This document shows positions 20,941 to 35,132 of a stretch of 43,100 bases of DNA, in pieces. Below the pieces are notes generated by a model. It was not told the origin of the DNA, did not search any database, and worked only from the letters and a program-made list of their open reading frames with translations. Positions within the stretch are counted from its first letter, which is position 1. Each line of letters opens with the position of its first letter. The translations under genes and the position numbers were made by a program. The stretch spans positions 1 through 43,100 of the forward strand of contig NZ_JABSOV010000029.1 in the NCBI RefSeq assembly GCF_013215345.1, given 5' to 3'. Source of the stretch: Colwellia sp. GTDB taxonomy: Bacteria > Pseudomonadota > Gammaproteobacteria > Enterobacterales > Alteromonadaceae.

Positions 20941-22143
20941 ATGACAATGTCTCTTATTAACTATCAAGAATTGGCCGAAAAAATCAAGGGTTGGGGTAAA
21001 GAACTCGGTTTTTCTGATTTAGGCATCAGTGATATTGACCTAACGGCTCATGAAAGTGTACTCGAAGCTTGGTTAGCTAATAACTACCACGGCAATATGG
21101 ATTACATGGCACGCCATGGTTTGATGCGTGCGCGACCAGCAGAATTAGTGCCCGGTACCATAAGAGTCATTAGTGTACGTTTAGATTACCTGCCACAAAA
21201 TGCTCAATTTGCCCGCATACTAAAAGATAAAGACAAAGCTTATATTAGCCGTTATGCCCTTGGTCGTGATTATCATAAATTAATGCGCAAACGCTTACAG
21301 CAATTAGGCAAGAAAATTTCCGAGCACTGCAGCGATTTTAATTGCCGCCCCTTCGTTGATTCTGCCCCCGTAATGGAGAGGCCATTAGCAGAGAAAGCTG
21401 GCTTAGGTTGGGCGGGTAAACATACCTTATTAATCAATAAAGAAGCCGGTTCTTGGTTTTTTCTGGGTGAATTATTTGTTGATATACCGCTACCGGTAAG
21501 CAGCAATGAATATAGTGTCAATGCGAGTAAAGCCATTGAAACACAAAGCAAGATTAATGATTGCGGTAGCTGCGTCGCCTGTATCAAAATCTGCCCAACT
21601 AAGGCGATAGTAGCACCCTATACAGTTGATGCTAGGCGCTGCATTTCTTATTTCACCATTGAATCACCCGAAGCCATTCCTGAAGAATTACGGCCATTAA
21701 TGGGTAATCGAATTTATGGTTGTGATGATTGCCAATTAATTTGCCCATGGAACAAATACGCTAAGCTCAGTCTTGAGGATGACTTTCAAGCGAGAAACAA
21801 TCTCGATGACATCAGTTTATTGGAGTTATTCGCTTGGTCAGAAGAATACTTTCTTAACACATTACAAGGCTCTCCCATCAGGCGTATAGGCTTTGAAAGT
21901 TGGCTACGTAATATTGCTGTGGCATTAGGCAATGCCCCTTATAGCGACAACATTGTTAGCGCATTAACTAAAAAACAATCTGCGGTAAGTGAGTTGGTTG
22001 CAGAACATATTAGCTGGGCACTTACTCAGCAAAACAATAAAAAAATGTTGACCGCGAAAGTGGCTGCCGAGCAAGGGAAAAATCATAGATTAACACTGCG
22101 CTTAATCCGTTCAGTCGAGAAAGGCCTGAGTAGAGATGCTTAG
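20941..22143 (+). CDS. queG: Epoxyqueuosine reductase QueG
   Basis: QueG reduces epoxyqueuosine to queuosine in the wobble position of GUN-anticodon tRNAs, using cobalamin and two [4Fe-4S] clusters. The 400-residue protein has DSAPVMERPLAEKAGLGWAGKHT, with the acid residue of the active site, and two ferredoxin-like clusters: CGSCVACIKICPTKAI (about 214-229) and CDDCQLICPWNKY (about 262-274), ending in a HEAT-like helical tail. The start at 20941 has no clear ribosome binding site; an ATG two codons later is an alternative. It diverges from the nnr-tsaE-amiB-mutL unit exactly as in E. coli. Confidence 0.96.
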   Translation: MTMSLINYQELAEKIKGWGKELGFSDLGISDIDLTAHESVLEAWLANNYHGNMDYMARHGLMRARPAELVPGTIRVISVRLDYLPQNAQFARILKDKDKAYISRYALGRDYHKLMRKRLQQLGKKISEHCSDFNCRPFVDSAPVMERPLAEKAGLGWAGKHTLLINKEAGSWFFLGELFVDIPLPVSSNEYSVNASKAIETQSKINDCGSCVACIKICPTKAIVAPYTVDARRCISYFTIESPEAIPEELRPLMGNRIYGCDDCQLICPWNKYAKLSLEDDFQARNNLDDISLLELFAWSEEYFLNTLQGSPIRRIGFESWLRNIAVALGNAPYSDNIVSALTKKQSAVSELVAEHISWALTQQNNKKMLTAKVAAEQGKNHRLTLRLIRSVEKGLSRDA

Positions 22144-22209: not shown

Positions 22210-22731
22210 TTAACTAGCTTTGCTTTGATTTAACATATCGATATCTGCTCTTGCTTCATCTAATTCATGTTGCACACTTAATAACTTTTTAATGGCATCA
22301 TTTTTATCAGTGACTGCTTTTTTCTCACGTGCTCTAGTCTCAGCCAGTTGTTGTTGCGTTTTTGTTAGGGTAGCCATCAAATTCGCAATATCAGTATTTT
22401 TCGCAAACTTTTGATCATCTCTAACATTGACGAAATCATCATCAGCGGAATTTAACAACTCCTTAGATTTAAAGCTTAAATAATTCGCACCAAGACGAAC
22501 AATAAAGATTAAACCAGTAAGTAACAACACGACAATATATTGATTGTCTTCAATAGCGGATAACGCGGCTGACACTTTAGTAAAAAAATCACCCTGAGTA
22601 TTGATGAAATGGCTAAATAATTGATTGTGCCAGGCAAGCCAAGTAGCTATATAGATAACGATAAAACTAGGGCCAGGATGCTGGTTCTCACTAAAGGAGA
22701 GCATTGACTTGAGGGTTTTCTTATTAATCAC
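22210..22731 (-). CDS. Membrane protein with C-terminal coiled coil, unknown function
   Basis: No family was recognised in this 173-residue protein. Two hydrophobic stretches lie at about 22-42 and 66-84 with a short loop between them. After them comes a cytoplasmic acidic stretch (LLNSADDDFVNVRDDQKF). From about 112 to 170 a heptad-rich region (LMATLTKTQQQLAETRAREKKAV..., LLSVQHELDEARADIDML) predicts a coiled coil. It is convergent with queG (66 bp between stops) and lies upstream-adjacent to the DUF1289 gene on the same strand (85 bp gap). A structural or scaffold role is possible but not shown. Confidence 0.72.
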   Translation of the reverse strand: MINKKTLKSMLSFSENQHPGPSFIVIYIATWLAWHNQLFSHFINTQGDFFTKVSAALSAIEDNQYIVVLLLTGLIFIVRLGANYLSFKSKELLNSADDDFVNVRDDQKFAKNTDIANLMATLTKTQQQLAETRAREKKAVTDKNDAIKKLLSVQHELDEARADIDMLNQSKAS

Positions 22732-23067: not shown

Positions 23068-26016
23068 CTAAACGATGGCATCTGCATATTGACTGATCGC
23101 TTGCACCGCTTGTTTGGTTTTGCTTAAGAGAAGTACTTGTATTTGTTCACTGTTATCTAAGTTTTCATTATTTAGCAATTTTTGCCAATGCTGACATAAA
23201 TGCAGTAAGTTATTTGCCGCAAGTATTTTACCGTTAACCTGTAATGCTTTGATAGCACTATCAGCATTGTTAGCATCGTTTATGCTAAATGCTTGACTTA
23301 GCTGTGCCACTAATTCGATATTTTCAGTGGTATATTCTTCTATCATATAAAACGCTAACTCTGCTGAACCTTGATGTTGCAAATACTGTTCAAAATTAAA
23401 GCTTGGCGCATCTGCCATAGCTGCGGTTACAGAACTTTCATATTGAACGCCATTCACAGTAAGCGCTTTATCAGGCATAAGTTGTACTGTATTGTTCGAG
23501 CCGCACTCACTACTTACTTGCTCTTTGAGCCAAGGTTGCATTGCGGAAATTAATTCATCAACGCTACTGTTGGCATTTAACTCGCCCACCAGCCAGTGGG
23601 TATAGTCCTCGGACTTATTTGATAAATCTACTGAGCTCGCCAAGCTAAAAACACCTCTCTCTAGGGCGAATTCCACCGAAATTGTTTCATCTTCATCAAC
23701 CAGAAAAGTACTAAAAGCTAGGCAGTCGATGTCAGTCATCAAGACAGCAAAGCGACCAGTTTGCCAATTTTTTTCTAACATCAATTCACTGTTGACCAAG
23801 GTTGTTTGTAAGCCTATGCCTTGCAACAATTGTTTCAAGCGTTGATATTTAATCGGCTCTTGTACCGCTAGCAATATTTCTATCGGCATAGCCAAATATT
23901 TAGCGGCTAATGTTAGACAAGCTTTTTCGATATCCGCTTTACCCCCAGGTAATGACAACACCGAGTGATTTTTTTGCTGTGTATTTTTAGTAATAGCCAA
24001 CGGCAGTGTGAAACTGAACTGATAGCCTTGTTCAGCTAAGTTAGCGCTAACATTATCACCATGCTGGTAGCGCAATAATGTTTTAAAGTACTCGCTAAGC
24101 TCATTTTTTTCGGCCTCTTCATCAATAAAACTGTGTAGTACTTGCGGCAATTGCGCAATTTTATCGCCACCTTTTACCTGACCACTAAAACATATTTTTT
24201 GTTGACCATTATTTTTATCAACTAGACGTAAATTTAGCTCTAAGTGCCTATCAATCTGCTTAGACAATAGCAGCTGAATAAAAGCTGCAAACATTTCTGA
24301 AAAGAGCTCGGCATCGAGATTTACTTCGGCAATAATTTTTTTATCAATGTTCAATCGTAACTTATTTTTACCTCGGTATAACTGAGCATCTAGATTAAAT
24401 AAAATTGCTTGGATTTGACCAACAAGATTGACATCACTCAAGGTAAGTACGGCGTCACTACTTTGCAAGTAACGATAACAACTCGCTTGCCTTAACTTTA
24501 AAACTAAGTCTCGAGCATGAAGGTGAGCATAATGTAAATAATTCCCTGGATCACCTTCATGGCTAGTGCTAATACTCGTGGTAATAGCACTACGCCCTAA
24601 TAGCACTAGTTGCTTTATAGTGGCTAAGTAAAGTGCTTTACCTCGTTGTTGCTCAAGTAATAATTGTGTTTGATATTTTTTTGAGGCATTCAGTTTGATT
24701 CGCTCTAACTCGATATTTAATTTTTCTTGAACAGCATTATGGATAACGATTAGCCCTGCAAGCTGCTCGTTTTTATCACTCAGTGCTAGATACTCTTGCT
24801 CGCTATAATTACTGCCATTTGTTTTTACTATTTTATTTATCAGCTGCTCTGACTCCTCAGTATGAAAACTATGCTGATAAAATTGCATGAAAATGCTTTT
24901 ATCTTTTATGTTCAACTGGCTAAACTCGCCGTCTAAGGCACGACTAATACAATTAACACTGTATTGACTAGCAAGCTTAATCCTTACTCGCACTAACCAC
25001 AGCAAAACAAAAATGCTCGCCAAGCTAGTAACAAATATAAGCCATTGCCATATTGGTAATTGTTGAGCCGTTATAGTTTCTTTATCCGCTGCGACATAAG
25101 GATAAATTGTTGAGTTAGGGTCTTGGCTATTTTCTAATAGGTCAGCAAGAATACTACGCAATTTCTGTTGCTGATAGACCCTTTCTTGATGATAATCAGC
25201 CATCAATCGCAAATTCCCTTGCCACTTTGACAGTAAACCAGCGGTTAAAGTAAAATCTTCAAAGTGAATAAGGTCTCTAACAATATCTGCCGTACTCTGA
25301 CTTTCATGCTGCTGACTCGCTAACTTCTTAGTATAATCAGCAATAAACACTTCATCGATTTTCTGACGTAATTGCTCGAATGTCCCAAGCGAAGTTTGTA
25401 AACTTAGCGGGGTCAGCATAGTTACTATATTGGTTAATTTTCCATGTAATTCTGTTAATAGCTGTACTTTATTCGAGTCAATGTCTTGATTTTCTCCCTG
25501 GATAGCTAGGGCATCAAGTAAAGTATCGAGCTGAATTAAGGATTTATCTTTTAACTGTATATTTATTAACTGATTAGATTCAATGCGGGTAATAAGGCTC
25601 ATAGCAGCATTATTCTGAGTAAACCATTGTTGATAAGTGTTTTTATACTGAGATTGTAATAATGATAATTTTTTACTTTGCAAAGCCAGCTCTTGCTGTA
25701 AGGCTATAACGTCATTCGTATTGACGCTTTGTAATATTTCATCAATAGTTTTATTCGCTTTGCTCAGATAGCTTTGTTGTATAAGTTGCTTTTGTAAGGG
25801 TACTAGCTGTTCACTTATTAACGCTTGAGAGAGCTTAGCTTGCTGAGCAGAGAACCATAGTGCCGAAGATAATACTGCAACAACAATCAGGAAGATTGCC
25901 AGTAAATATCCGCTAAAGTATTGATACAATGGCTTACTAGCAATGTTACAAGGCGCTACAAGCACTTGCTTACTAGGCAAATTAGCAGCGTTTTTATCCG
26001 TTTTATTTGTAGTCAT
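23068..26016 (-). CDS. Large membrane protein with TorS-like layout: degenerate hybrid histidine kinase
   Basis: The 982-residue protein has transmembrane segments at about 34-56 and 323-346 that enclose a helical periplasmic domain. A linker with coiled coil (about 350-460) and four degenerate modules follow. At the DHp position YLATIKQLVLL (463-473) stands where FLATISHEIR is expected, so the phospho-histidine is Q469. The ATPase-like region (about 527-675) lacks recognisable N and G boxes. The receiver-like region (about 712-830) has T761 at the phospho-aspartate position (FAVLMTDID). The Hpt-like C-terminus (about 872-980) has K923 where AHxLKG carries histidine. The reading frame is intact over 2.9 kb. 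Module calls rest on manual alignment of short motifs. It may act as a phosphorylation-independent sensor or scaffold; its partner is unknown. Confidence 0.72.
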   Translation of the reverse strand: MTTNKTDKNAANLPSKQVLVAPCNIASKPLYQYFSGYLLAIFLIVVAVLSSALWFSAQQAKLSQALISEQLVPLQKQLIQQSYLSKANKTIDEILQSVNTNDVIALQQELALQSKKLSLLQSQYKNTYQQWFTQNNAAMSLITRIESNQLINIQLKDKSLIQLDTLLDALAIQGENQDIDSNKVQLLTELHGKLTNIVTMLTPLSLQTSLGTFEQLRQKIDEVFIADYTKKLASQQHESQSTADIVRDLIHFEDFTLTAGLLSKWQGNLRLMADYHQERVYQQQKLRSILADLLENSQDPNSTIYPYVAADKETITAQQLPIWQWLIFVTSLASIFVLLWLVRVRIKLASQYSVNCISRALDGEFSQLNIKDKSIFMQFYQHSFHTEESEQLINKIVKTNGSNYSEQEYLALSDKNEQLAGLIVIHNAVQEKLNIELERIKLNASKKYQTQLLLEQQRGKALYLATIKQLVLLGRSAITTSISTSHEGDPGNYLHYAHLHARDLVLKLRQASCYRYLQSSDAVLTLSDVNLVGQIQAILFNLDAQLYRGKNKLRLNIDKKIIAEVNLDAELFSEMFAAFIQLLLSKQIDRHLELNLRLVDKNNGQQKICFSGQVKGGDKIAQLPQVLHSFIDEEAEKNELSEYFKTLLRYQHGDNVSANLAEQGYQFSFTLPLAITKNTQQKNHSVLSLPGGKADIEKACLTLAAKYLAMPIEILLAVQEPIKYQRLKQLLQGIGLQTTLVNSELMLEKNWQTGRFAVLMTDIDCLAFSTFLVDEDETISVEFALERGVFSLASSVDLSNKSEDYTHWLVGELNANSSVDELISAMQPWLKEQVSSECGSNNTVQLMPDKALTVNGVQYESSVTAAMADAPSFNFEQYLQHQGSAELAFYMIEEYTTENIELVAQLSQAFSINDANNADSAIKALQVNGKILAANNLLHLCQHWQKLLNNENLDNSEQIQVLLLSKTKQAVQAISQYADAIV

Positions 26017-26060: not shown

Positions 26061-26209
26061 ATATACCCGTTACCATTCAAGATACATGTTTCAGAGTGCT
26101 TGAGCAATTTCAATTCAAGGCATATCAATGTAGCCATGGTTATTCCATTTCAAATTGATGTAACGATGAAGTGATGTTGCTCAAGCACTTTGAATGGTAA
26201 CGGGTATAT
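26061..26209. mobile_element. 149-bp MITE-like palindromic element
   Basis: A perfect 20-bp terminal inverted repeat (26061-26080, beginning ATATACCCGTTACC, and 26190-26209) encloses a second inverted pair, AGTGCTTGAGCAA (26095-26107) and TTGCTCAAGCACT (26177-26189). The left arm carries 14 extra bases between the two pairs. There is no ORF of note. The size, ends and intergenic location fit a non-autonomous mobile element or long palindromic repeat of the kind scattered in Colwellia and relatives (recalled, not searched). The TATA at the ends may hide a TA target duplication. Confidence 0.75.
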
Positions 26210-26253: not shown

Positions 26254-26796
26254 TTAGTGCTTTTTTTTACCACTTTTTTTAGTTACCCATGCCCACTCCA
26301 TCTGACATTCTATCGGGGATTGCCCTGATTCATCTTCAATAGTTACTGGCACAAAGATACTACCTTTGTCTTCTTGCTCAATCAGTTTAATTTGTTCATC
26401 GGTTAACTGAGCTACAGCGCTTAAGCTCCCTTGCATGCGCCTTTGATAATTGACTTTCATAGACTTTAATAAGGGTAATTTTGAGTTAGGCACATTCATA
26501 CCAAAGACAATACCTGTTGCTGATTCTGCTAGCACAGCCGCAGCAATTGCATGTATGCCACCAATATGATTTTGCACCGATTTTTTATTCGCTAAAAACA
26601 ACTGTGTTTTATGGTTAGTTATCTCATTAATTTTAATACCGCTTGTGCCGGCAAATTTAACTTTACTGGTGAATAGCTTTGTTAATAAAAAAGAGCGGAG
26701 AAAGCTAGGTGCTGAATTGATCTTTGATACAATATTATTAAACTGATTAGCCATAAGTAACGTCTTTGATAAATTAATTGATGCTTGCATTGTCAT
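26254..26796 (-). CDS. DUF4442 / hotdog-fold thioesterase-like protein
   Basis: The 180-residue protein resembles the DUF4442 branch of the hotdog-fold superfamily (PaaI-like thioesterases). The segment NKKSVQNHIGGIHAIAAAVLAESATG has the N-x-x-G-x-x-H-A-x-A pattern of the hotdog helix and active-site region, and the later VNYQRRMQGSLSAVAQL and FVPVTIEDESGQ segments match its beta strands. An acyl-CoA or acyl-ACP thioesterase activity is possible but not proven. The start is uncertain: a second methionine at residue 15 (MANQFNN) is a good alternative. Confidence 0.78.
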   Translation of the reverse strand: MTMQASINLSKTLLMANQFNNIVSKINSAPSFLRSFLLTKLFTSKVKFAGTSGIKINEITNHKTQLFLANKKSVQNHIGGIHAIAAAVLAESATGIVFGMNVPNSKLPLLKSMKVNYQRRMQGSLSAVAQLTDEQIKLIEQEDKGSIFVPVTIEDESGQSPIECQMEWAWVTKKSGKKKH

Positions 26797-26947: not shown

Positions 26948-27427
26948 TTACTGGTCCAATAATAGCTCTAGCTGAGCAAGGGATAGCTCGGAAAACACTT
27001 TAATACCATGTTGACGCAGCAGTTTTGTCGTGATGCCCTCACCAACAATTATTTTTTGGCTAAATGAACCATCATAAATAGTATTGCTACCACAGGATGG
27101 ACTAGACTCTTTTAGTAAAGCAAAACGAATATCATGCCGTTGGCATAAACTTAAAGCCAGCTGAGCACCTTTTTTAAACTGTTGGCTAACATCAACGGAT
27201 TCAATAGTTAGCACTTGCTTGGTCTTGGGATTTATTTCAGCTGGCGGTCTTGGTACTGGTAAGCCTGACATAACCTCAGGACAAACAGAGATAAAACGAC
27301 CTTGCTGCTGCCATTGACTTATCAATTGACTGACTAAGCTTTTGACTACACCGTTATAGCGTACTCTTTCACCAAGAAAACAGGCACTGATCAAAATCTT
27401 ATCAAAGCATTGCTTGTTACTAGCCAT
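26948..27427 (-). CDS. DUF523 family protein
   Basis: A 159-residue cytosolic protein with the DUF523 signatures: ISACFLGERVRYNG near the N-terminus, CPEVMSGLPVPRPPAEI (about 49-65), LLKESSPSCGSNTIYDGSF and the closing GITTKLLRQHGIKVFSE. Three cysteines lie at conserved-looking positions (16, 49 and 112 approximately) and may bind metal or a cluster. The function is unknown. Its ATG overlaps the stop of the upstream DUF3630-like gene by 1 nt (TAATG), so the two are translationally coupled. Confidence 0.9.
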   Translation of the reverse strand: MASNKQCFDKILISACFLGERVRYNGVVKSLVSQLISQWQQQGRFISVCPEVMSGLPVPRPPAEINPKTKQVLTIESVDVSQQFKKGAQLALSLCQRHDIRFALLKESSPSCGSNTIYDGSFSQKIIVGEGITTKLLRQHGIKVFSELSLAQLELLLDQ

Positions 27428-27738
27428 TATTTTTCTAACTCCGCATATAAATTAGCTAAAGACTCAGTGCTTTTACTACCTCGCCCTTCTAACCAACAAG
27501 ATTGGCTATAATAATCAAAGTTCAACACAAAATAATGCTCTTGCCAAGAAAAGCGAATATTTTCTCGGTCTGCGCCAATTATATTTTCTTGCATAGTAAC
27601 CGGCATGATTGGCGAAAGTAGGAGCGTTATTAGTGCTGCAATATTTTCTTGGTACCAGTCATTTTCAAAATAAACGCTTAAATGGTCTGCTTGGTATGTG
27701 AGCGACTTAATACTCTGTGAGCTTGTTCCAGGGATCAT
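27427..27738 (-). CDS. Small DUF3630-like protein
   Basis: A 103-residue protein with no signal peptide or membrane segment. The closing part, ENIRFSWQEHYFVLNFDYYSQSCWLEGR, resembles the LxFexYSexxWLE pattern recalled for DUF3630 of Vibrio and Shewanella; the assignment is by memory and moderate. It is translationally coupled to the DUF523 gene by a 1-nt stop-start overlap, forming a two-gene operon. Confidence 0.65.
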   Translation of the reverse strand: MIPGTSSQSIKSLTYQADHLSVYFENDWYQENIAALITLLLSPIMPVTMQENIIGADRENIRFSWQEHYFVLNFDYYSQSCWLEGRGSKSTESLANLYAELEK

Positions 27739-28495: not shown

Positions 28496-29263
28496 TTAAG
28501 CTTTACGACGAGCTGCACCAGCTAAGCCTAAAAGACCTAAAGCAAAGATAGCTAAGCTAGTAGGCTCTGGAATAGAGTTACCATTCATAATAAATGTACC
28601 GGCATCAGTGCCTCCAGTACGAACAGAGCTATAAGCTAAGTCACTACCAAAAATCTGACCATTGGTATCAAAATTACTAGCAACTAAACCACCAATAACA
28701 TTAAAATATGCATTACCAAATGCACCATCCGTTACATTGCCTGCTACATCGATAGTAGAGCCGGCACCATCCCCTGCTAACGGATTAATCACAGCCTCTA
28801 ATTCTAACCACAGTAAATCATCTGATGCCGAAGCATAATCAGTAGGTAAACCACCAGTATCAGCATAAACCGCAGCACTACCACCAGAGAATATTGGTGA
28901 GCCTGTACCTGTTAGATTCACAAGTTCGAAGTCAGTAAAAGTGAAAGTTAAAAGCTGACAAGTCACACAATATTCGCCCTGATTTTGACCATTTAAACTA
29001 GTTAAAAAGCCATAACCTTGCAAAGTGTCTGCAAGAGTTACCAAACTAAAATCAGTTATTATATCACCTACATTAATACCATTTCGTGAAGTACCCGCAA
29101 CATAGTACTGTTTAAAAAAGCCATTCGAAGTAAAGTCACTAAAAAACCCATTATCAAAATCAGGATCCCAGGTAACACCACCAGAAGTTATTTGTGATGC
29201 ATTAGCACCAAAGCTTGCCAGAGCAATTACTGACGCTGCTGCAAGAGTTTTCAATAAGTTCAT
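28496..29263 (-). CDS. PEP-CTERM sorting-domain extracellular protein
   Basis: A 255-residue exported protein with an N-terminal signal peptide (to about residue 22, GANA-S). The C-terminus is a standard PEP-CTERM sorting tail: IPEPTSLAIF at 231-240, a hydrophobic helix and the basic end AARRKA. By family knowledge the tail is recognised by an exosortase (EpsH/XrtA), which cleaves it during export to the surface or exopolysaccharide matrix. The middle is Gly/Asn/Asp/Thr-rich and beta-rich, with one CxxC-like pair (YCVTCQL); no known fold was recognised. AAGGA lies 7 nt before the ATG. A sigma-54 promoter lies about 50 bp upstream, which is the known control mode for PEP-CTERM genes. Confidence 0.92.
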   Translation of the reverse strand: MNLLKTLAAASVIALASFGANASQITSGGVTWDPDFDNGFFSDFTSNGFFKQYYVAGTSRNGINVGDIITDFSLVTLADTLQGYGFLTSLNGQNQGEYCVTCQLLTFTFTDFELVNLTGTGSPIFSGGSAAVYADTGGLPTDYASASDDLLWLELEAVINPLAGDGAGSTIDVAGNVTDGAFGNAYFNVIGGLVASNFDTNGQIFGSDLAYSSVRTGGTDAGTFIMNGNSIPEPTSLAIFALGLLGLAGAARRKA

Positions 29264-29312
29264 AGAATTTCCTTATAGATATTCAAAGTTTTGTATAATA
29301 CTCCTCGTACTG

Positions 29313-29328
29313 AGCATTTTTTATGCCA
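29313..29328 (-). promoter_or_regulatory. Sigma-54 (RpoN) promoter of the PEP-CTERM gene
   Basis: On the minus strand TGGCATAAAAAATGCT matches the -24/-12 consensus TGGCAC-N5-TTGC with the GG and GC exactly 10 nt apart. The predicted start near 29301 leaves a leader of about 38 nt before the ATG. PEP-CTERM genes in several bacteria are controlled by RpoN with the PrsK/PrsR two-component system, which agrees with this element. Confidence 0.78.
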
Positions 29329-29354
29329 AAACGAAAACTTTCACCATTTCGTTT
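29329..29354. repeat. Inverted repeat AAACGAAA-N10-TTTCGTTT beside the sigma-54 promoter
   Basis: Perfect 8-bp half-sites (29329-29336 and 29347-29354) directly upstream of the -24 element. It has the form of a dimeric activator or repressor site, but it is closer to the promoter than usual enhancer sites for sigma-54 activators. Confidence 0.45.
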
Positions 29355-29453
29355 ATAAATCATAAGTTAAGCTAGTTGCTGCCTTATACAGCTATTAAGA
29401 AAGTCACAAACTTGTAAAATTTACTGACAGTGACTGCCACTTGCATAACTAAC

Positions 29454-32246
29454 TTAATATTGCTCTACCTCTTGTTTCAACTTAGCTATTTTTACATTTA
29501 ACTTACTATCATGGGCACTCAAACCAGATAAGACCTGCTTTGCTTGCTCATGCTGCTGCAAGGCGATATAGGCCTCAGCCAAGCTCACTTTAGCACTGAC
29601 ATCTATTGGGCCTTGCTTAATGACATTAACGAGCACTTCAATCGCCTCTTCATAACGCTTATTAGCGACTAAAATCACACCATAACTTTCTGCAATAGCA
29701 CTATTGTCAGGTGCTAAATACAAGGCTTTTTCGATATTCAGTTGCGCATTAACTAAATCATCACTCTGGTACTGCTGCCAAGCTAGGTTATTCAACGCAG
29801 CTAAATTATTAGGTTGATCTTTTATAATTCTTTGGTAGATAGTAATGATCTTGGCAGATTTATTATTATCGACATTGTTCATGCCATAAAGCTCTGCAAG
29901 TAACATTCTCACCCTATTATCGTTAACAATGTTAGTGAGGTAGTTTTCTAAAACCAATTCAGCTTCAGCGCCTTGCTTAGAGAACTGCAAGGCTCTTGCT
30001 AAGTTAATGGCACCAGTACTATTTGGTACTTGCTCATATAATTCACTATAAAGTTCAATTGCTAGATCATATTGTTTTTCTTGTATCGCAACCTTAGCTG
30101 TTGTCATGGTTATTATATTGTTAGAGACACCTTTATCTTTTAATACTTTTAATTGCTGCTTAGTGGCTTGAATATTATTGTTAGCTAGCTCTAAATAGGC
30201 TCGCATTGTCATCAAGTTATCATCGTCAGGGAAATCTATATTTGCCTTTTTAGTTAACGCTAAGGCCGGTGAAAATTGTTTTAGTTTTTCCAGTGTGCCA
30301 ATATGGCCAACACGAAGAATATAACTTTTACCGTGCTCTTTTAAACCCTGTTCATAGGTAGTTAACACGCGTTTAAACTGATGCATTTGTGTATAACTAG
30401 CCGCCAAGACTGCCCAATAACGTGGCGATAAGTTTTTTTCACTTTTGATCGATTCTAACAATGAAATGGCTGTAGGTACCTGCTTACTAATACGTAGGTT
30501 TTGAGCCAAACCCATAACTAAATTCTTATGGATAGGCTTACCATTGAGTTTACTTTGCTGATGTAACGCATTTAAAAATAAAATAGCCTCTGCAGAACGT
30601 CCCTGCCTTGTTTGCAAAACAGTATAGCGGCGAATAGCGTTATGATGATTAGGGCTAAGCTCGATGACCTCTTTAAAGCCAGCAATGGCCTTTGTCGCTT
30701 GTTTATGAAAAGCGGCAACGATTGCTAAATTATAAATGGCACTGATACTTTTAGGCGCTATTTTCAGAGCATTTAGAAAATATTTTTCCGCTGCAGTTAC
30801 CTTTTCTAACTTCATGGCAATAAGTCCGTTTAAGATATTGCCTGACACCTGATGACTGTCAGAGTCTAGCCACTTATTGGCAATAACTTGTGCCTTAGCG
30901 ACTTCATTACCTCGCAAATACTGACGAGCTAAAGCGAACTCGGTATCGTGTAAACTTGGGTCAATAGTTAGTGCTTGCTCTAACGACTTAATTCCGGATA
31001 AATCTCTTTGACTCAGTAATAGAGAGCCTTGCTGAACCTGTAAAGCCGCATTGTTTGGCGATACCTGTACAGCTTTATTTATTAATGTTTGCGCACTGGC
31101 ATAGTCCCCAGCCTTCATTAACTCAACACTGGTTATTTGTAATAAGTCGCTATCACTATTTTTTATTTCATTCAATTTAGCCTCCGACAGGGCTAAATCA
31201 TCGGTGTGACCTAGTTTTATTTTTATTGATAATAAAATAACATTGATAGGGTGTGTTGCTGGTAACAGACTCTCCAAAGCAATCAAATAACCGTAAGCTT
31301 GCTCCAATTCATCAAGCTTATAAGAGCTAACTCCAGCAATCATTTTGGCAATAACAAAAGTATCATTAAGACCAACAGCTTGACTCGCATACTCCCTAGC
31401 GGCCATATAATTGCCATGTTGAAAGGCAATTTGAGCTTTATATTGCAAGGCTAGTGGTGAATTTTCAAAGGCCTTTAACAAACTATCATTGAGCGTACTT
31501 GCTTGGGCGAACTTTTGCGCTTTAATTAAGGTGTTCACCTGAAAAAAACGAATGTTATTATCATAAGGGTAAGCGATTATATAGCGCGAAAAATCCTTGC
31601 TTGCTTGTTCAAAGTTATTTGAAGCAAAATTTAAATAGCCTTGTAACAGCAATGCCTCGAAAAAATCGCTATCTTCTGCTAGCAAGCTATTGCTCAGCTC
31701 TAGACCTGCCGCGAACTTTCTTTCACTGTAAAGTAAATAGGCACTCGCAAGTTGACTAAAAACGTTCTCTTGATTAATTGCAACCGCTTGAGAGAAATAA
31801 TATTGTGCTTTAGTCACTAACCCATCTGTTAGCGCATTCATGCCGGCATAGGTCAAGATCACAATATAGTCACTATCATTGAGGACTTCACTTGCTCTGA
31901 CCAATTGCTCAACTTCTTCAGATTTATTGAGACGAGTTTTTACCTGTGTTAATAGTGTTGCCGTTTGCGCAAAACTTGCGCCAAGGGCCACCGCTCTTTC
32001 TAATTCTTTCTCGGCACTAATATAGTTACCTTGGTTAAGGTATGCCCTGCCAAGCCAGAACCTAGCAGCAGAATTTTTCGGGTCTAATCTAACAGCGTTT
32101 TTATAATCGATAATAGCCGTAGCAAATTTACCCTGCTGGCTAAACACATTTGCACTTGCCATTAATTGTTCCGCAGTCTTTTGCTCGCTACAAGCACTCA
32201 AGGTAAGCGCCAAGATTATTGCTGATGTAATTATTATTTTATTCAT
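29454..32246 (-). CDS. PEP-CTERM system TPR-repeat lipoprotein, PrsT-like (copy 2)
   Basis: The 930-residue protein has a lipoprotein signal peptide ending LTLSAC (lipid on C19). It then consists almost entirely of tetratricopeptide-type helical pairs, such as AIIDYKNAVRLDPKNSAARFWLGRAYLNQGNYISAEKELE near the N-terminus and AALNNLAWQQYQSDDLVNAQLNIEKALYLAPDNSAI near residue 815. Length, lipobox and repeat content match the PrsT family of exosortase systems (around 900 residues), proposed to scaffold exopolysaccharide assembly in the periplasm. A paralogue lies directly upstream on the same strand. The 914-aa gene's terminator falls between them, so this copy has its own promoter. Confidence 0.88.
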   Translation of the reverse strand: MNKIIITSAIILALTLSACSEQKTAEQLMASANVFSQQGKFATAIIDYKNAVRLDPKNSAARFWLGRAYLNQGNYISAEKELERAVALGASFAQTATLLTQVKTRLNKSEEVEQLVRASEVLNDSDYIVILTYAGMNALTDGLVTKAQYYFSQAVAINQENVFSQLASAYLLYSERKFAAGLELSNSLLAEDSDFFEALLLQGYLNFASNNFEQASKDFSRYIIAYPYDNNIRFFQVNTLIKAQKFAQASTLNDSLLKAFENSPLALQYKAQIAFQHGNYMAAREYASQAVGLNDTFVIAKMIAGVSSYKLDELEQAYGYLIALESLLPATHPINVILLSIKIKLGHTDDLALSEAKLNEIKNSDSDLLQITSVELMKAGDYASAQTLINKAVQVSPNNAALQVQQGSLLLSQRDLSGIKSLEQALTIDPSLHDTEFALARQYLRGNEVAKAQVIANKWLDSDSHQVSGNILNGLIAMKLEKVTAAEKYFLNALKIAPKSISAIYNLAIVAAFHKQATKAIAGFKEVIELSPNHHNAIRRYTVLQTRQGRSAEAILFLNALHQQSKLNGKPIHKNLVMGLAQNLRISKQVPTAISLLESIKSEKNLSPRYWAVLAASYTQMHQFKRVLTTYEQGLKEHGKSYILRVGHIGTLEKLKQFSPALALTKKANIDFPDDDNLMTMRAYLELANNNIQATKQQLKVLKDKGVSNNIITMTTAKVAIQEKQYDLAIELYSELYEQVPNSTGAINLARALQFSKQGAEAELVLENYLTNIVNDNRVRMLLAELYGMNNVDNNKSAKIITIYQRIIKDQPNNLAALNNLAWQQYQSDDLVNAQLNIEKALYLAPDNSAIAESYGVILVANKRYEEAIEVLVNVIKQGPIDVSAKVSLAEAYIALQQHEQAKQVLSGLSAHDSKLNVKIAKLKQEVEQY

Positions 32247-32338
32247 GATAAATCCTTTATTGGCATTTAGAGCTGATTTTTTGAGTTAGGGCTAGGGTGA
32301 TAGTAACTTGACAAAATGAAGCCATATTCCTCACGACT

Positions 32339-32370
32339 ATAAAAAAGCGACTGTCGTAGCAGTCGCTTTT
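32339..32370 (-). terminator. Terminator of the upstream PrsT-like gene
   Basis: AAAAGCGACTG (32343-32353) and CAGTCGCTTTT (32360-32370) form a perfect 11-bp stem with a 6-nt loop; on the minus strand T residues follow. It lies 18 nt after the stop of the gene ending at 32388. Confidence 0.93.
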
Positions 32371-32387
32371 GTTGCCAGTTAACCTAA

Positions 32388-35132
32388 TTATAATTGTGCT
32401 TGTAATTGAGCTTTTTTCTCAGTTTGCTCATCTGTTTGCGGAGATGTTTTACTTAATAAGTCTTTTGCTTCATTTGCTCGACTATTGGCAATCAGAGCTT
32501 CAATATAATTAAGCTGGATATCAATATCCTGTCCTTGAGCTAAATCAGAGGCTTTAGTGGCATATTTTAATGCCGCCCTTTTATCACCCGACTTAAGCAG
32601 CACTTTACCGTAAGTATCGGCAATATTTGGAATGTGAGGCGCTAAGGCAAAAGCCTCTTTTGCATGTATTAATGCTTTATCGAGTTTACTCTGCTCTAAA
32701 TACAGCCAAGCTAAATTATTATGAGCAATAACATTTTTCGGTTGATTTTTAACTACGTCAGCATAAATAGCAATGGCTTTATTGGTATCGCCCTCTAAGT
32801 AAATACCCGCCAGCATAGTTTTAATACGGCTGTCATTAGGCTCTATAGTTAAATAATGCTCTAGTACTTTGACAGCTTTGTGCTCTTCTTTATTGCCCAT
32901 ATAAGCACCCGCTAAATATACGGCATTTTGACTACTTGGGTAAACTTGATAGAACTTGTTTAGTTTAGGTACTGCTTGACTATGCTTTTCTTCTAACAGT
33001 AGAATCCGCCCAAGAAAGCCTTGTTTTAGCGCATCGTTAATACCGGTAACAGCTAGTGTTTTATAGAGACTTTTAGCCGGTGTAATTTGTTGGCTATTAA
33101 GCAGCAATTGCATTTTTACCAGCTGTAACACCAAATTATCTTGATGATAATCTAAACCACGTTTCACTATATTCAAGGCACGCTCATTATTACCACGGTT
33201 AGCATGTAAATCGGCTAATAGCACTACAGGTTCTATATGGTATGGGCTAGCTTTTAACCAACTATCTAAAGCCGATTCCATTTTCTTACCGTCATGTTGT
33301 TTTCTATGGTTAAACACCACTAATTGCCAATAGCGTCTTGGTAATTTAGGTGTATCAGCAAAGTCAGTCAGTAAATTTTCGGCCTGCTTATATTGCGCTA
33401 AGCTCACCATAGCTTCAGCCACTAATATCGCTTTGTTAATATCCTTGTTATCCGCTTGGTAGGCTGCTTGTAATTTCTCTAATGCCATTTCATTGCGGTA
33501 GATGCCAAAGTAATGTCGCAAGACTTTATTATTGCTTGGCGCAAGTTTCATTAAATAATCAACGCGCTCTTTACTCAAAGTTTCATTTTTTTGTTGACGA
33601 GCCAACCTAAGCTGCTCAGTAAGTGCGAAAATATTATCAGGTTCTAACTTTAAGCTCAGCTTTAACGATTGCTCTGCTTTATCATATTTTTTTTCCTTAA
33701 TAGCAATACTTGCCATTAAATTATAACCACCCGGTTTTTCAGGATATTTGTCCTGCCATTTAATGGCTATCTCACGCGCTTGTTTAATATCATTATTTTG
33801 TAGCGCAGCATAAGCTAATGCTAACTCAGCCTCAATAAAGCTTGGATCTAGTTTAACCGCATCTTGCAAGTCCTGGATACCTGAGGGGTCATTCATCATC
33901 AACTTTAAAATACCCTGCCTAGCGTTATCTCCGGCATTAGTAGAAGTAGTCGCTGCACTTTGCTCAAGTAATTTTTTTGCTTCCGCCATTGCACCAAGTT
34001 CTAGTAGCTTATAGCTTAATGAAGAAAGAAATTGTGCATCACCCTCTCGGCTTGCCGAAAAATCACCTACCGTGGCACTTATTTCATCAACGAAACCCAG
34101 TTCTAACTGGGTAACAGCCAACATGCGCCTAGCTTGATGATCTTTCGGCAAGTATTTAACCACCATAGATAAATGACGATGGCTCTGTTGCCAGTTTTTT
34201 AGATAAAAGGCACTCGCACCCGCGACTAATCTTAAGTTAGCTTGGTTAAAATTCGCCGATAATGCCCTTTCCGCATGTGCACTGGCTTTATCAAATACTT
34301 TGCCATTAAAAGCAACCATGGCTTTTATATAATGGGCAAAAGGTTGGCTATCAATTCGGGCTAAGATGGCATCGGCATACTTTTCAGCTTCTTCATCTTG
34401 ACCGGACTTAAGTAACGCATCCGCTAACAATAATTGCACAATTCCTGAACGAGGCTGTAAATCTAAATATTCTTTAAAGCTTAGCGCTGCTTGCTCATAG
34501 TCCTTGGTTACCATTGATACTTGCCCTTGCAGCATAAGTGCATCGACTTGCTGCGCATCTATGGCTAAAATCCGTGAAATTAAGGTTTTCACTTCATCAT
34601 AGTTATTCTCTGCCAATTGCAGGTAGGCCATAGCCAACATGCTATATAAACTTTGATTGGCGATGGACTGCGCTACAGCGGCACTCTCTTTTGCCTGCTC
34701 AGGTTGCTTACTTCGCAATGCCGCTAGGGTTTTATAAGCTAAGTAATGGCTTTGTTCTTCATTAGCCAATTTTTCCGCCTCATCACTTAAGGCCAAAACA
34801 TCAGCATCGCTGTCCGTTAAAGTATATGCACGGGCAAGTAATGGCAGTACCTTATTAGCTGCATAGTCAAACTGATGGGCTCGTTCAAGTTCCTTTACTG
34901 CGGCAAGACCATCACCTAAATTCAAATAAATTTGACCCAGTAAAAATCGTGCTTCAGCATTTTTGCTATCGGCACGAATAGCATTTTTGAACTCAATAAT
35001 ACTTTCATTGATTTGCTTATTGCTGAGATAGCTTTTGGCATTTTCTAGATGAGATTCATCAGAGACTTGTTCACTACAGGCAGTAAGTGCCAACGCGATA
35101 CTTAAACAGAGGGAGGCTTTTACAAATTTCAT
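32388..35132 (-). CDS. PEP-CTERM system TPR-repeat lipoprotein, PrsT-like (copy 1)
   Basis: The 914-residue protein starts with a lipoprotein signal peptide ending LALTAC (C19) and carries TPR-type repeats throughout. The first (ESIIEFKNAIRADSKNAEARFLLGQIYLNLGDGLAAVKELERA) closely parallels the same region of the downstream copy, and the repeat near residue 803 (IAHNNLAWLYLEQSKLDKALIHAKEAFALAPHIPNIADTYG) parallels its C-terminal one. The two are thus tandem paralogues. The role is inferred from the PrsT family: an outer- or inner-membrane-anchored periplasmic scaffold for exopolysaccharide synthesis. GGAAA near the ATG is a possible ribosome binding site. It is downstream of a MITE-like element, and the promoter is not identified. 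Confidence 0.88.
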   Translation of the reverse strand: MKFVKASLCLSIALALTACSEQVSDESHLENAKSYLSNKQINESIIEFKNAIRADSKNAEARFLLGQIYLNLGDGLAAVKELERAHQFDYAANKVLPLLARAYTLTDSDADVLALSDEAEKLANEEQSHYLAYKTLAALRSKQPEQAKESAAVAQSIANQSLYSMLAMAYLQLAENNYDEVKTLISRILAIDAQQVDALMLQGQVSMVTKDYEQAALSFKEYLDLQPRSGIVQLLLADALLKSGQDEEAEKYADAILARIDSQPFAHYIKAMVAFNGKVFDKASAHAERALSANFNQANLRLVAGASAFYLKNWQQSHRHLSMVVKYLPKDHQARRMLAVTQLELGFVDEISATVGDFSASREGDAQFLSSLSYKLLELGAMAEAKKLLEQSAATTSTNAGDNARQGILKLMMNDPSGIQDLQDAVKLDPSFIEAELALAYAALQNNDIKQAREIAIKWQDKYPEKPGGYNLMASIAIKEKKYDKAEQSLKLSLKLEPDNIFALTEQLRLARQQKNETLSKERVDYLMKLAPSNNKVLRHYFGIYRNEMALEKLQAAYQADNKDINKAILVAEAMVSLAQYKQAENLLTDFADTPKLPRRYWQLVVFNHRKQHDGKKMESALDSWLKASPYHIEPVVLLADLHANRGNNERALNIVKRGLDYHQDNLVLQLVKMQLLLNSQQITPAKSLYKTLAVTGINDALKQGFLGRILLLEEKHSQAVPKLNKFYQVYPSSQNAVYLAGAYMGNKEEHKAVKVLEHYLTIEPNDSRIKTMLAGIYLEGDTNKAIAIYADVVKNQPKNVIAHNNLAWLYLEQSKLDKALIHAKEAFALAPHIPNIADTYGKVLLKSGDKRAALKYATKASDLAQGQDIDIQLNYIEALIANSRANEAKDLLSKTSPQTDEQTEKKAQLQAQL

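Follow-up and report, generated by a model that had tools for sequence, protein, structure and literature searches.

Pseudo-histidine kinases are proteins that keep a kinase fold and lack one or more of its catalytic functions, and in the survey that so describes them the histidine is reported missing from 0.9% of HisKA and 0.9% of Hpt domains and the aspartate from 2.0% of receivers (PMC12632262). Among the described members, RcsD of Escherichia coli is laid out most like the protein considered here, with a periplasmic domain, a PAS-like part, an inactive HATPase and a C-terminal Hpt, its described plan also including an ABL domain between the HATPase and the Hpt (PMC7418988). Here we analyse one gene in a stretch of 43,100 nucleotides from Colwellia sp. 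(contig NZ_JABSOV010000029.1, positions 1 to 43,100; hereafter the window), whose product, judged from its aligned residues and modelled folds, answers to the definition of a pseudo-histidine kinase. On balance we favour the view that it descends from an unorthodox hybrid histidine kinase, is catalytically dead and acts as a membrane signaller without phosphotransfer, with a pseudo-Hpt domain as its output; the ancestral plan would be sensor-(PAS-like)-DHp-ATPase-REC-REC-Hpt. To our knowledge, the known pseudo-kinases keep at least one working phosphotransfer step, either in themselves or in a close partner. What appears new in this case is that, by sequence, the kinase, the ATP site, the receiver and the Hpt are all dead together, in a chromosomal family that has been trimmed repeatedly.

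The gene is an open frame of 982 codons at 23068-26016, as the first-pass annotation had it; it has an ATG start and lies on the minus strand, which that annotation did not specify. The module layout given there (periplasmic sensor, DHp, ATPase, REC, Hpt) is recovered in agreement by an AlphaFold2 (AF2) model, by structure comparison with VIA-align and by profile alignment with hhalign. The parts of the protein are as follows, the boundaries of the two membrane helices being set by eye.

23068..26016, minus strand: pseudo-hybrid histidine kinase, whole gene, 982 amino acids (open frame, relatives, AF2 model)
25852..25920, minus strand: first transmembrane helix, about residues 33-55 (hydrophobic; model helix 31-96)
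25105..25806, minus strand: periplasmic helical sensor, about residues 71-304 (VIA-align)
24991..25059, minus strand: second transmembrane helix (TM2), about residues 320-342 (hydrophobic; model helix 311-361)
24463..24798, minus strand: DHp-like helix pair with no H-box, residues 407-518
23977..24459, minus strand: ATPase-like (CA) domain with N-box and G-boxes lost, residues 520-680 (hhalign columns and fold)
23527..23886, minus strand: receiver-like domain, about residues 711-830, corresponding to the second receiver of longer relatives (hhalign, ShkA)
23731..23733, minus strand: Asp762, receiver phospho-Asp column, reference Asp756 (hhalign, script check)
23071..23409, minus strand: Hpt-like domain, residues 870-982 (VIA-align)
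23248..23250, minus strand: Lys923, Hpt His column, reference His913 (hhalign, script check)

The model was built from an alignment of 50 sequences and has a mean pLDDT (predicted local distance difference test) of 79.8. Its sensor resembles those of TorS (3o1i, Z 14.7, root-mean-square deviation (rmsd) 3.9 over 222 aligned residues, 71-302), McpS (2yfb, Z 14.3) and PilJ (8wdf, Z 13.6), and since it is a helical bundle it discriminates weakly among the three. The earlier description of the protein as TorS-shaped is thus fair for the sensor fold, but McpS and PilJ fit nearly equally well, and by sequence E. coli TorS is matched only weakly (probability 13 over 102 columns). Residues 397-676 match the GacS kinase core (7z8n, Z 18.2, rmsd 7.0, 277 aligned), with further kinase-core matches to RetS (7n0e, Z 15.2) and DivL (4q20, Z 13.4), and the ATPase-like domain is matched by the catalytic domain of ETR1 (4pl9, Z 16.6, rmsd 2.7, 147 aligned). 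Because the kinase core fills the structure list of this model, receivers are unranked in it; the receiver assignment is based on hhalign with active kinases, on the match of ShkA (6qrj) to residues 451-831 (Z 14.5) and on the receiver match in the model of one long relative. The Hpt-like domain (869-982) matches 3myf (Z 15.6, rmsd 2.3, 111 aligned) and the BarA Hpt (3iqt, Z 14.4). In the long relative, of 1193 amino acids (pLDDT 82.4, predicted template modelling score (pTM) 0.51), the model comprises a sensor at about 48-304 (PilJ Z 15.6, TorS 15.1, McpS 14.4), a block at 424-507 whose succession of strands and helices looks PAS-like, an extra receiver at 766-889 (9of7, Z 12.7) and an Hpt at 1076-1193 (3myf, Z 15.0).

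The state of the active sites was read from a profile alignment of the window family with six hybrid kinases whose catalytic motifs are intact, the columns being checked by script. This alignment covers ATPase, REC and Hpt (probability 99.5, E 1.2e-22, 560 columns), and in a local control rerun the real pair reached 98.5, against 0.0-0.1 for five column-shuffled profiles and one reversed profile. In the ATPase-like domain, Asn431/Asn435 of the N-box are replaced by Ala578/Leu582 and Asp467 of G1 by Val614, while the G2 glycines fall inside a deletion, which upholds the absence of ATP-binding boxes noted in the first-pass annotation. The acid pair of the receiver has become Val718/Gln719 and its Lys809 has become Ala815, and the phospho-Asp column holds Asp762; Thr761, previously taken for the replaced aspartate, lies one residue off. 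In the Hpt, Lys923 does occupy the histidine column, as had been proposed. The DHp helix is left unaligned by unforced profiles and its exact histidine column is uncertain, the kinase part alone aligning at probability 83 (E 8.7e-6). A forced global alignment puts the histidine in a gap between Arg458 and Gly459 (24640-24645) and sets Gln469, formerly named as its substitute, opposite Gly329. A His-rich column at residue 404 (35/61 rows) was considered as a shifted phospho-histidine and rejected, since the model places it in a loop of low confidence ahead of the coil and since, in the longer relatives, it precedes the PAS-like block (by eye). The statement that every phosphotransfer site had been replaced therefore went too far by one residue: it stands for the DHp, which has no H-box, and for Lys923, and it falls for the receiver, where Asp762 is present and the acid pair and lysine around it are gone. 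Of the hallmarks of an active unorthodox kinase, homology over ATPase-REC-Hpt is retained, and the H-box, the N- and G-boxes, a complete receiver site and the Hpt histidine are missing.

Orthologues share these replacements, as the first-pass annotation had suggested checking. Counts come from a 61-row alignment, which omits G004, G008, G011, G026, G092 and nine short forms, and from a 77-row set, which omits G004, G008, G026 and the short forms and in which 14 rows are named records not already present. Among the 61 orthologues, Asn is absent from both N-box columns, Asp from G1 and His from column 469; among the 77, neither DxGxG nor a G2-like motif occurs. The DHp region has no H-box in any of the 77, the sole pattern match lying in the sensor of G030, and four Hpt-like pattern matches in orthologues all lie outside the Hpt. 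As far as sequence can tell, inactivation is common to the genera sampled.

The same columns bear on the idea of a residual or unusual phosphate chemistry, in which Asp762 (Glu in relatives) and scattered DHp histidines would still act. The receiver phospho-Asp column, where Asp762 stands, is Glu in 59, Asp in 13 and another residue in 5 of the 77 orthologues, that is, acidic in 72, and some His occurs at columns 456-462 in 20 of them. These histidines share no column and form no H-box, and the acid pair, the receiver lysine, the N-box and the G-boxes are gone, so that we regard such chemistry as improbable. Even less credible is an intermediate of the RcsD type, shaped like a kinase and still passing phosphate on through its Hpt. 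The general plan is that of RcsD, but RcsD is described as needing His842 of its Hpt (PMC7418988), whereas the corresponding column is Lys923 here and His in 1/77 orthologues (G206, whose receiver column is Gly). There was no significant match to E. coli RcsD (probability 0.3, from one E. coli sequence and thus a test of low power), nor to E. coli BarA when single sequences were compared (probability 0.2).

The gene or a remnant of it is present in 37/37 genomes of the window's genus and in 0/24 genomes from other families of the order, both from one protein search of 61 genomes; "genus" is here the label of the classification tool, and some other-genus records are still named Colwellia. A profile search of the taxonomic family, with a threshold of E <= 1e-8, matched 106 of 395 genomes, spread over 20 of 52 genera. 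An active orthologue at the locus was looked for in 394 genomes of the order; beyond the family this gave weak, generic matches only (best E 8.8e-11) and no intact orthologue. At most two candidates were scored per genome in these two profile searches, which makes absences soft. The named relatives (52 loci) are recorded under the names Colwellia, Litorilituus, Thalassotalea, Thalassomonas, Cognaticolwellia and Pseudocolwellia; plasmids searched by tblastn yielded nothing. A queG-like gene and/or a gene for a DUF4442 protein accompanies the gene in 37/39 other-genus stretches, the exceptions being G298 and G232 (G068, which counts among the 37, has its gene cut by the contig end and no listed frame). 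Both are mostly direct neighbours, the queG-like gene lying a few kb off in G145 and G111, and the usual order is tsaE-(nnrD-like)-queG-gene-DUF4442, where queG, tsaE and nnrD-like are presumed names. Because this neighbourhood is kept across genera, the pseudo-kinase genes are one syntenic orthologue group. Their products come in three lengths: about 1087-1251 amino acids; about 945-1018 amino acids, the window type, which has lost the first receiver; and 525-611 amino acids, with sensor and Hpt-like domain only.

In a FastTree phylogeny of the sensor and Hpt columns (72 sequences, 462 columns, without G004, G008, G026 and G092), the short forms fall at three positions. G017 lies inside a clade of long forms from the same genus (support 1.000), G099 and G138 pair with support 1.000 beside the 1087-residue form of G061 (0.992), and g76 and G072 pair with support 0.999. 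The sensor of the short forms matches the full-length family at probability 100, and Gly883, Ser884, Glu886, Ala888, Met891, Tyr895, Ile931 and Ala934 of the Hpt-like domain are kept in 10/10 short forms. Across 62 long forms the Hpt histidine column is variable and poorly conserved (0.25), whereas another helix motif of this domain is nearly invariant; by module, conservation is 0.499 for the receiver, 0.483 for the Hpt, 0.445 for the ATPase and 0.390 for the sensor, and lower for the DHp helices (0.344 and 0.371), TM2 (0.357) and the linker (0.232). These data suggest that the sensor and the Hpt-like domain are the functional core and that the receiver-like domain matters where it is present, the trimming amounting to a deletion experiment made by evolution, from which the core can be read. 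In the genome of G072, whose short form has 525 amino acids (L222:3313-4890), a hemY-like gene (by eye) lies directly upstream and the queG-like gene on the other side.

The pattern of reduction also bears on a modulator of the RetS/DivL type, in which the DHp-like and ATPase-like domains would partner an active histidine kinase and act as its switch, the Hpt-like domain being secondary. The kinase core is near GacS, RetS and DivL in fold, RetS is reported to inhibit GacS by direct binding (PMC12148439), and the window's genome has 37 HisKA matches, so possible partners abound. However, the DHp-ATPase part is gone from three lineages that keep the sensor and the Hpt-like domain, and conservation is comparatively low in the DHp helices, only TM2 and the linker being similar or lower. 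We therefore consider a modulator of this type possible, if rather doubtful.

Selection was estimated as the ratio of nonsynonymous to synonymous substitution rates (dN/dS) by NG86, for seven pairs drawn from five genomes and hence not independent. The pseudo-kinase gave dN/dS of 0.245-0.367, with bootstrap intervals spanning 0.202-0.469 and below 1 in 7/7 pairs, so that it is under purifying selection; an active hybrid kinase gave 0.104-0.174 in the same pairs, and seven neighbouring genes 0.043-0.169 in one pair. Values for single modules vary, and they are rough because synonymous divergence is uneven along the gene (0.039 to 1.44 in the closest pair). Slow gene decay, with a former working kinase now drifting, would agree with a ratio looser than that of the active kinase, with the broken gene of G004 and with that of G008, split near its C-terminus, possibly by sequencing error (the gene of G026 is split between contigs). 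It agrees poorly with full-length open frames that persist down to 23% identity within the genus, with invariant Trp265, Trp751, Trp829, Ala888 and Met891, with the bootstrap intervals and with a neighbourhood kept in other genera, and decay seems to us unlikely.

The predicted folds, the loss, read from the alignments, of the residues for kinase activity, ATP binding and phosphotransfer, the syntenic family, the purifying selection and the recurrent reduction are thus strongly supported, and with them the designation as a pseudo-hybrid kinase, since its folds are kept, its active sites are lost and the loss is common to orthologues in other genera. Conservation at the same chromosomal place in marine relatives of Colwellia, despite the loss of nearly all phosphate chemistry, suggests signalling by contact and not the passing of phosphate. 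For a dead descendant of an unorthodox kinase, a periplasmic signal would bend or re-pair the helical sensor dimer, and the change would be relayed by TM2 and the coiled coil. The Hpt-like domain, together with the receiver-like domain in full-length forms, might then act as a binding module that cannot be phosphorylated and that binds or releases a partner in the cytoplasm, perhaps a receiver domain, the middle kinase shell being at most a spacer or regulator. The protein may be the scaffold or signalling platform suggested earlier, and the reduced orthologues point to a core of sensor and Hpt-like domain and not to the whole stack.

Several observations weigh against this view. No partner is known for the pseudo-hybrid kinase. 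The pTM of the window model is 0.48, at which the modelled domains appear credible and their mutual arrangement does not. Constraint is loose, because dN/dS is 1.6-2.8 times that of the active hybrid kinase and above that of the seven neighbours, and the sole copy in G004 is broken, with several stops. The reduction in G017 is a single genome, and the Hpt of the short forms gives a moderate profile match to that of active kinases (probability 58, E 9.8e-5). Finally, of the modules in full-length forms it is the receiver-like domain, ahead of the Hpt, that is conserved best, so that the output may not be confined to the Hpt. Taken together, the first-pass annotation appears largely right apart from two residue assignments, and the relatives make a better case than a single sequence can for a pseudo-hybrid kinase that is conserved, syntenic and repeatedly reduced, its mechanism being inferred.

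A candidate partner is encoded next to the gene in some genera, where a same-strand REC-TPR protein of 545-565 amino acids lies about 203-485 bp downstream in 13/39 other-genus stretches; none of the 37 stretches from the window's genus has REC-TPR beside the gene.

L085:3559-5208 and 12 further loci: REC-TPR protein (adjoins the pseudo-kinase)

Its receiver keeps the acid pair and the lysine, and the phospho-Asp column is Ser or Ala in 13/13. The 13 linked genomes and G135, whose downstream side is cut by the contig end, are one tree group (support 0.43). A REC-TPR relative in G055, 59% identical, also has Ala at the phospho-Asp column; no pseudo-kinase lies beside its gene, and G055 gave no match in the 61-genome protein search. 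Nine more distant REC-TPR relatives were aligned, with Asp in six and Gly or Glu in three. The window's genus has distant relatives only, that of the window's genome being 23% identical and on another contig. In two of these same-genus relatives (L234 and L235, in G033 and G028) the phospho-Asp column holds Gly, and they may represent a further lineage of pseudo-receivers. REC-TPR as a universal partner was rejected, given 13/39 other-genus and 0/37 same-genus stretches and its occurrence without the pseudo-kinase in G055: pseudo-kinase and pseudo-receiver are linked in some genera, and the pairing is not obligatory. A phosphate-free two-component pathway can be put forward tentatively, in which the pseudo-hybrid kinase signals by allostery from pseudo-Hpt to pseudo-receiver, the adjoining REC-TPR being the likely partner in the 13 other-genus genomes and a different or unlinked protein taking that role in the window's genus.

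In the window itself the gene is flanked by the following genes.

26254..26796, minus strand: DUF4442 protein, upstream-side neighbour (PF14539, E 1.4e-28; synteny)
20941..22143, plus strand: queG-like gene, other-side neighbour (synteny)
22210..22731, minus strand: orf173, small membrane/coiled-coil protein (beside the window-type form only)

The product of orf173 has no Pfam family above the cut-off; orf173 adjoins the window-type form in 20/22 genomes, the broken G004 included, against 0/15 of the other same-genus genomes, and it may be a mere clade marker. Between DUF4442 and the start of the pseudo-kinase lies a palindromic stretch (26061-26209) resembling a miniature inverted-repeat transposable element. 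Its terminal inverted repeats, 20 bases long, are perfect, and a 19-base piece of the terminus is present at 29 places in the genome when up to one mismatch is allowed, versus 0 for a reversed control. Further along, on the minus strand, 26948-27738 encodes a 2-thiouracil desulfurase-family protein (PF04463) and a DUF3630 protein (PF12305), which are found near the locus only in genomes with the window-type form. The minus-strand region 28496-35132 carries a gene for a protein with a PEP-CTERM-like sorting signal at its end (by eye) and then two large genes, for TPR lipoprotein-like proteins of 930 and 914 amino acids, that resemble tandem paralogues. Promoter and terminator scans did no better than shuffles.

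Library searches with the single window sequence gave no credible match in Pfam (best E 0.12), in NCBIfam (best E 0.016, far below the cut-off), in PADLOC or among PDB sequences, so that library-based annotation would leave the frame blank. None of the Pfam families HisKA, HATPase_c, Response_reg and Hpt is above its curated cut-off in the window protein, and censuses by domain library would therefore miss the family; as the protein escapes both Pfam and NCBIfam, such systems may be undercounted. Among relatives, Pfam detected Hpt in 6 and Response_reg in 2 of 29 longer forms (best E 0.002 and 0.0011) and Hpt in 6/9 short ones (best E 0.00081), the scan covering P0001 and G017 within the window's genus. 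Against PDB sequences, profile A2 found as its best match the Hpt protein 7c1i (E 0.0096), and profile A3, of 61 aligned orthologues, nothing credible. A description of this family was not found in the open-access literature (PMC; titles and abstract starts). The repeated trimming opens the question of contact-only signalling by these folds to direct testing in harmless marine bacteria.

Compared with known systems, the protein has a predicted helical periplasmic sensor that resembles that of TorS of E. coli and Vibrio about as much as those of McpS and PilJ; it differs from TorS in its lost sites, and the sequence match is weak. TorS has the order sensor-DHp-ATPase-REC-Hpt and is catalytically active. 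The pseudo-HPt proteins of plants likewise have an Hpt fold without the phospho-histidine; they are soluble, eukaryotic and unfused to a membrane sensor, and one of them inhibits cytokinin signalling. RetS has a sensor different from that of the window protein, and DivL is not known to have an Hpt. RetS of Pseudomonas aeruginosa is, like the window protein, a membrane relative of kinases with a similar core fold, reported to act by direct contact with another kinase (PMC12148439), whereas the present family has dispensed with the kinase core in three lineages. DivL of Caulobacter is described as a kinase core repurposed as a binding platform (PMC4211667), which the fold match to 4q20 recalls, and it differs in sensor and taxonomic range. 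The pseudo-receiver of ShkA is likewise a receiver fold without a working phospho-site, used for contact with protein or ligand, but the kinase domain and the other receiver of ShkA are reported to be phosphorylated (PMC12632262). RcsD remains the closest in plan, yet it is described as needing its Hpt histidine, His842 (PMC7418988), the residue that has been lost here. With RcsD, RetS and DivL already known as pseudo-histidine kinases, to call this an undescribed class was an overstatement, and the window protein is better regarded as a more complete variant of them.

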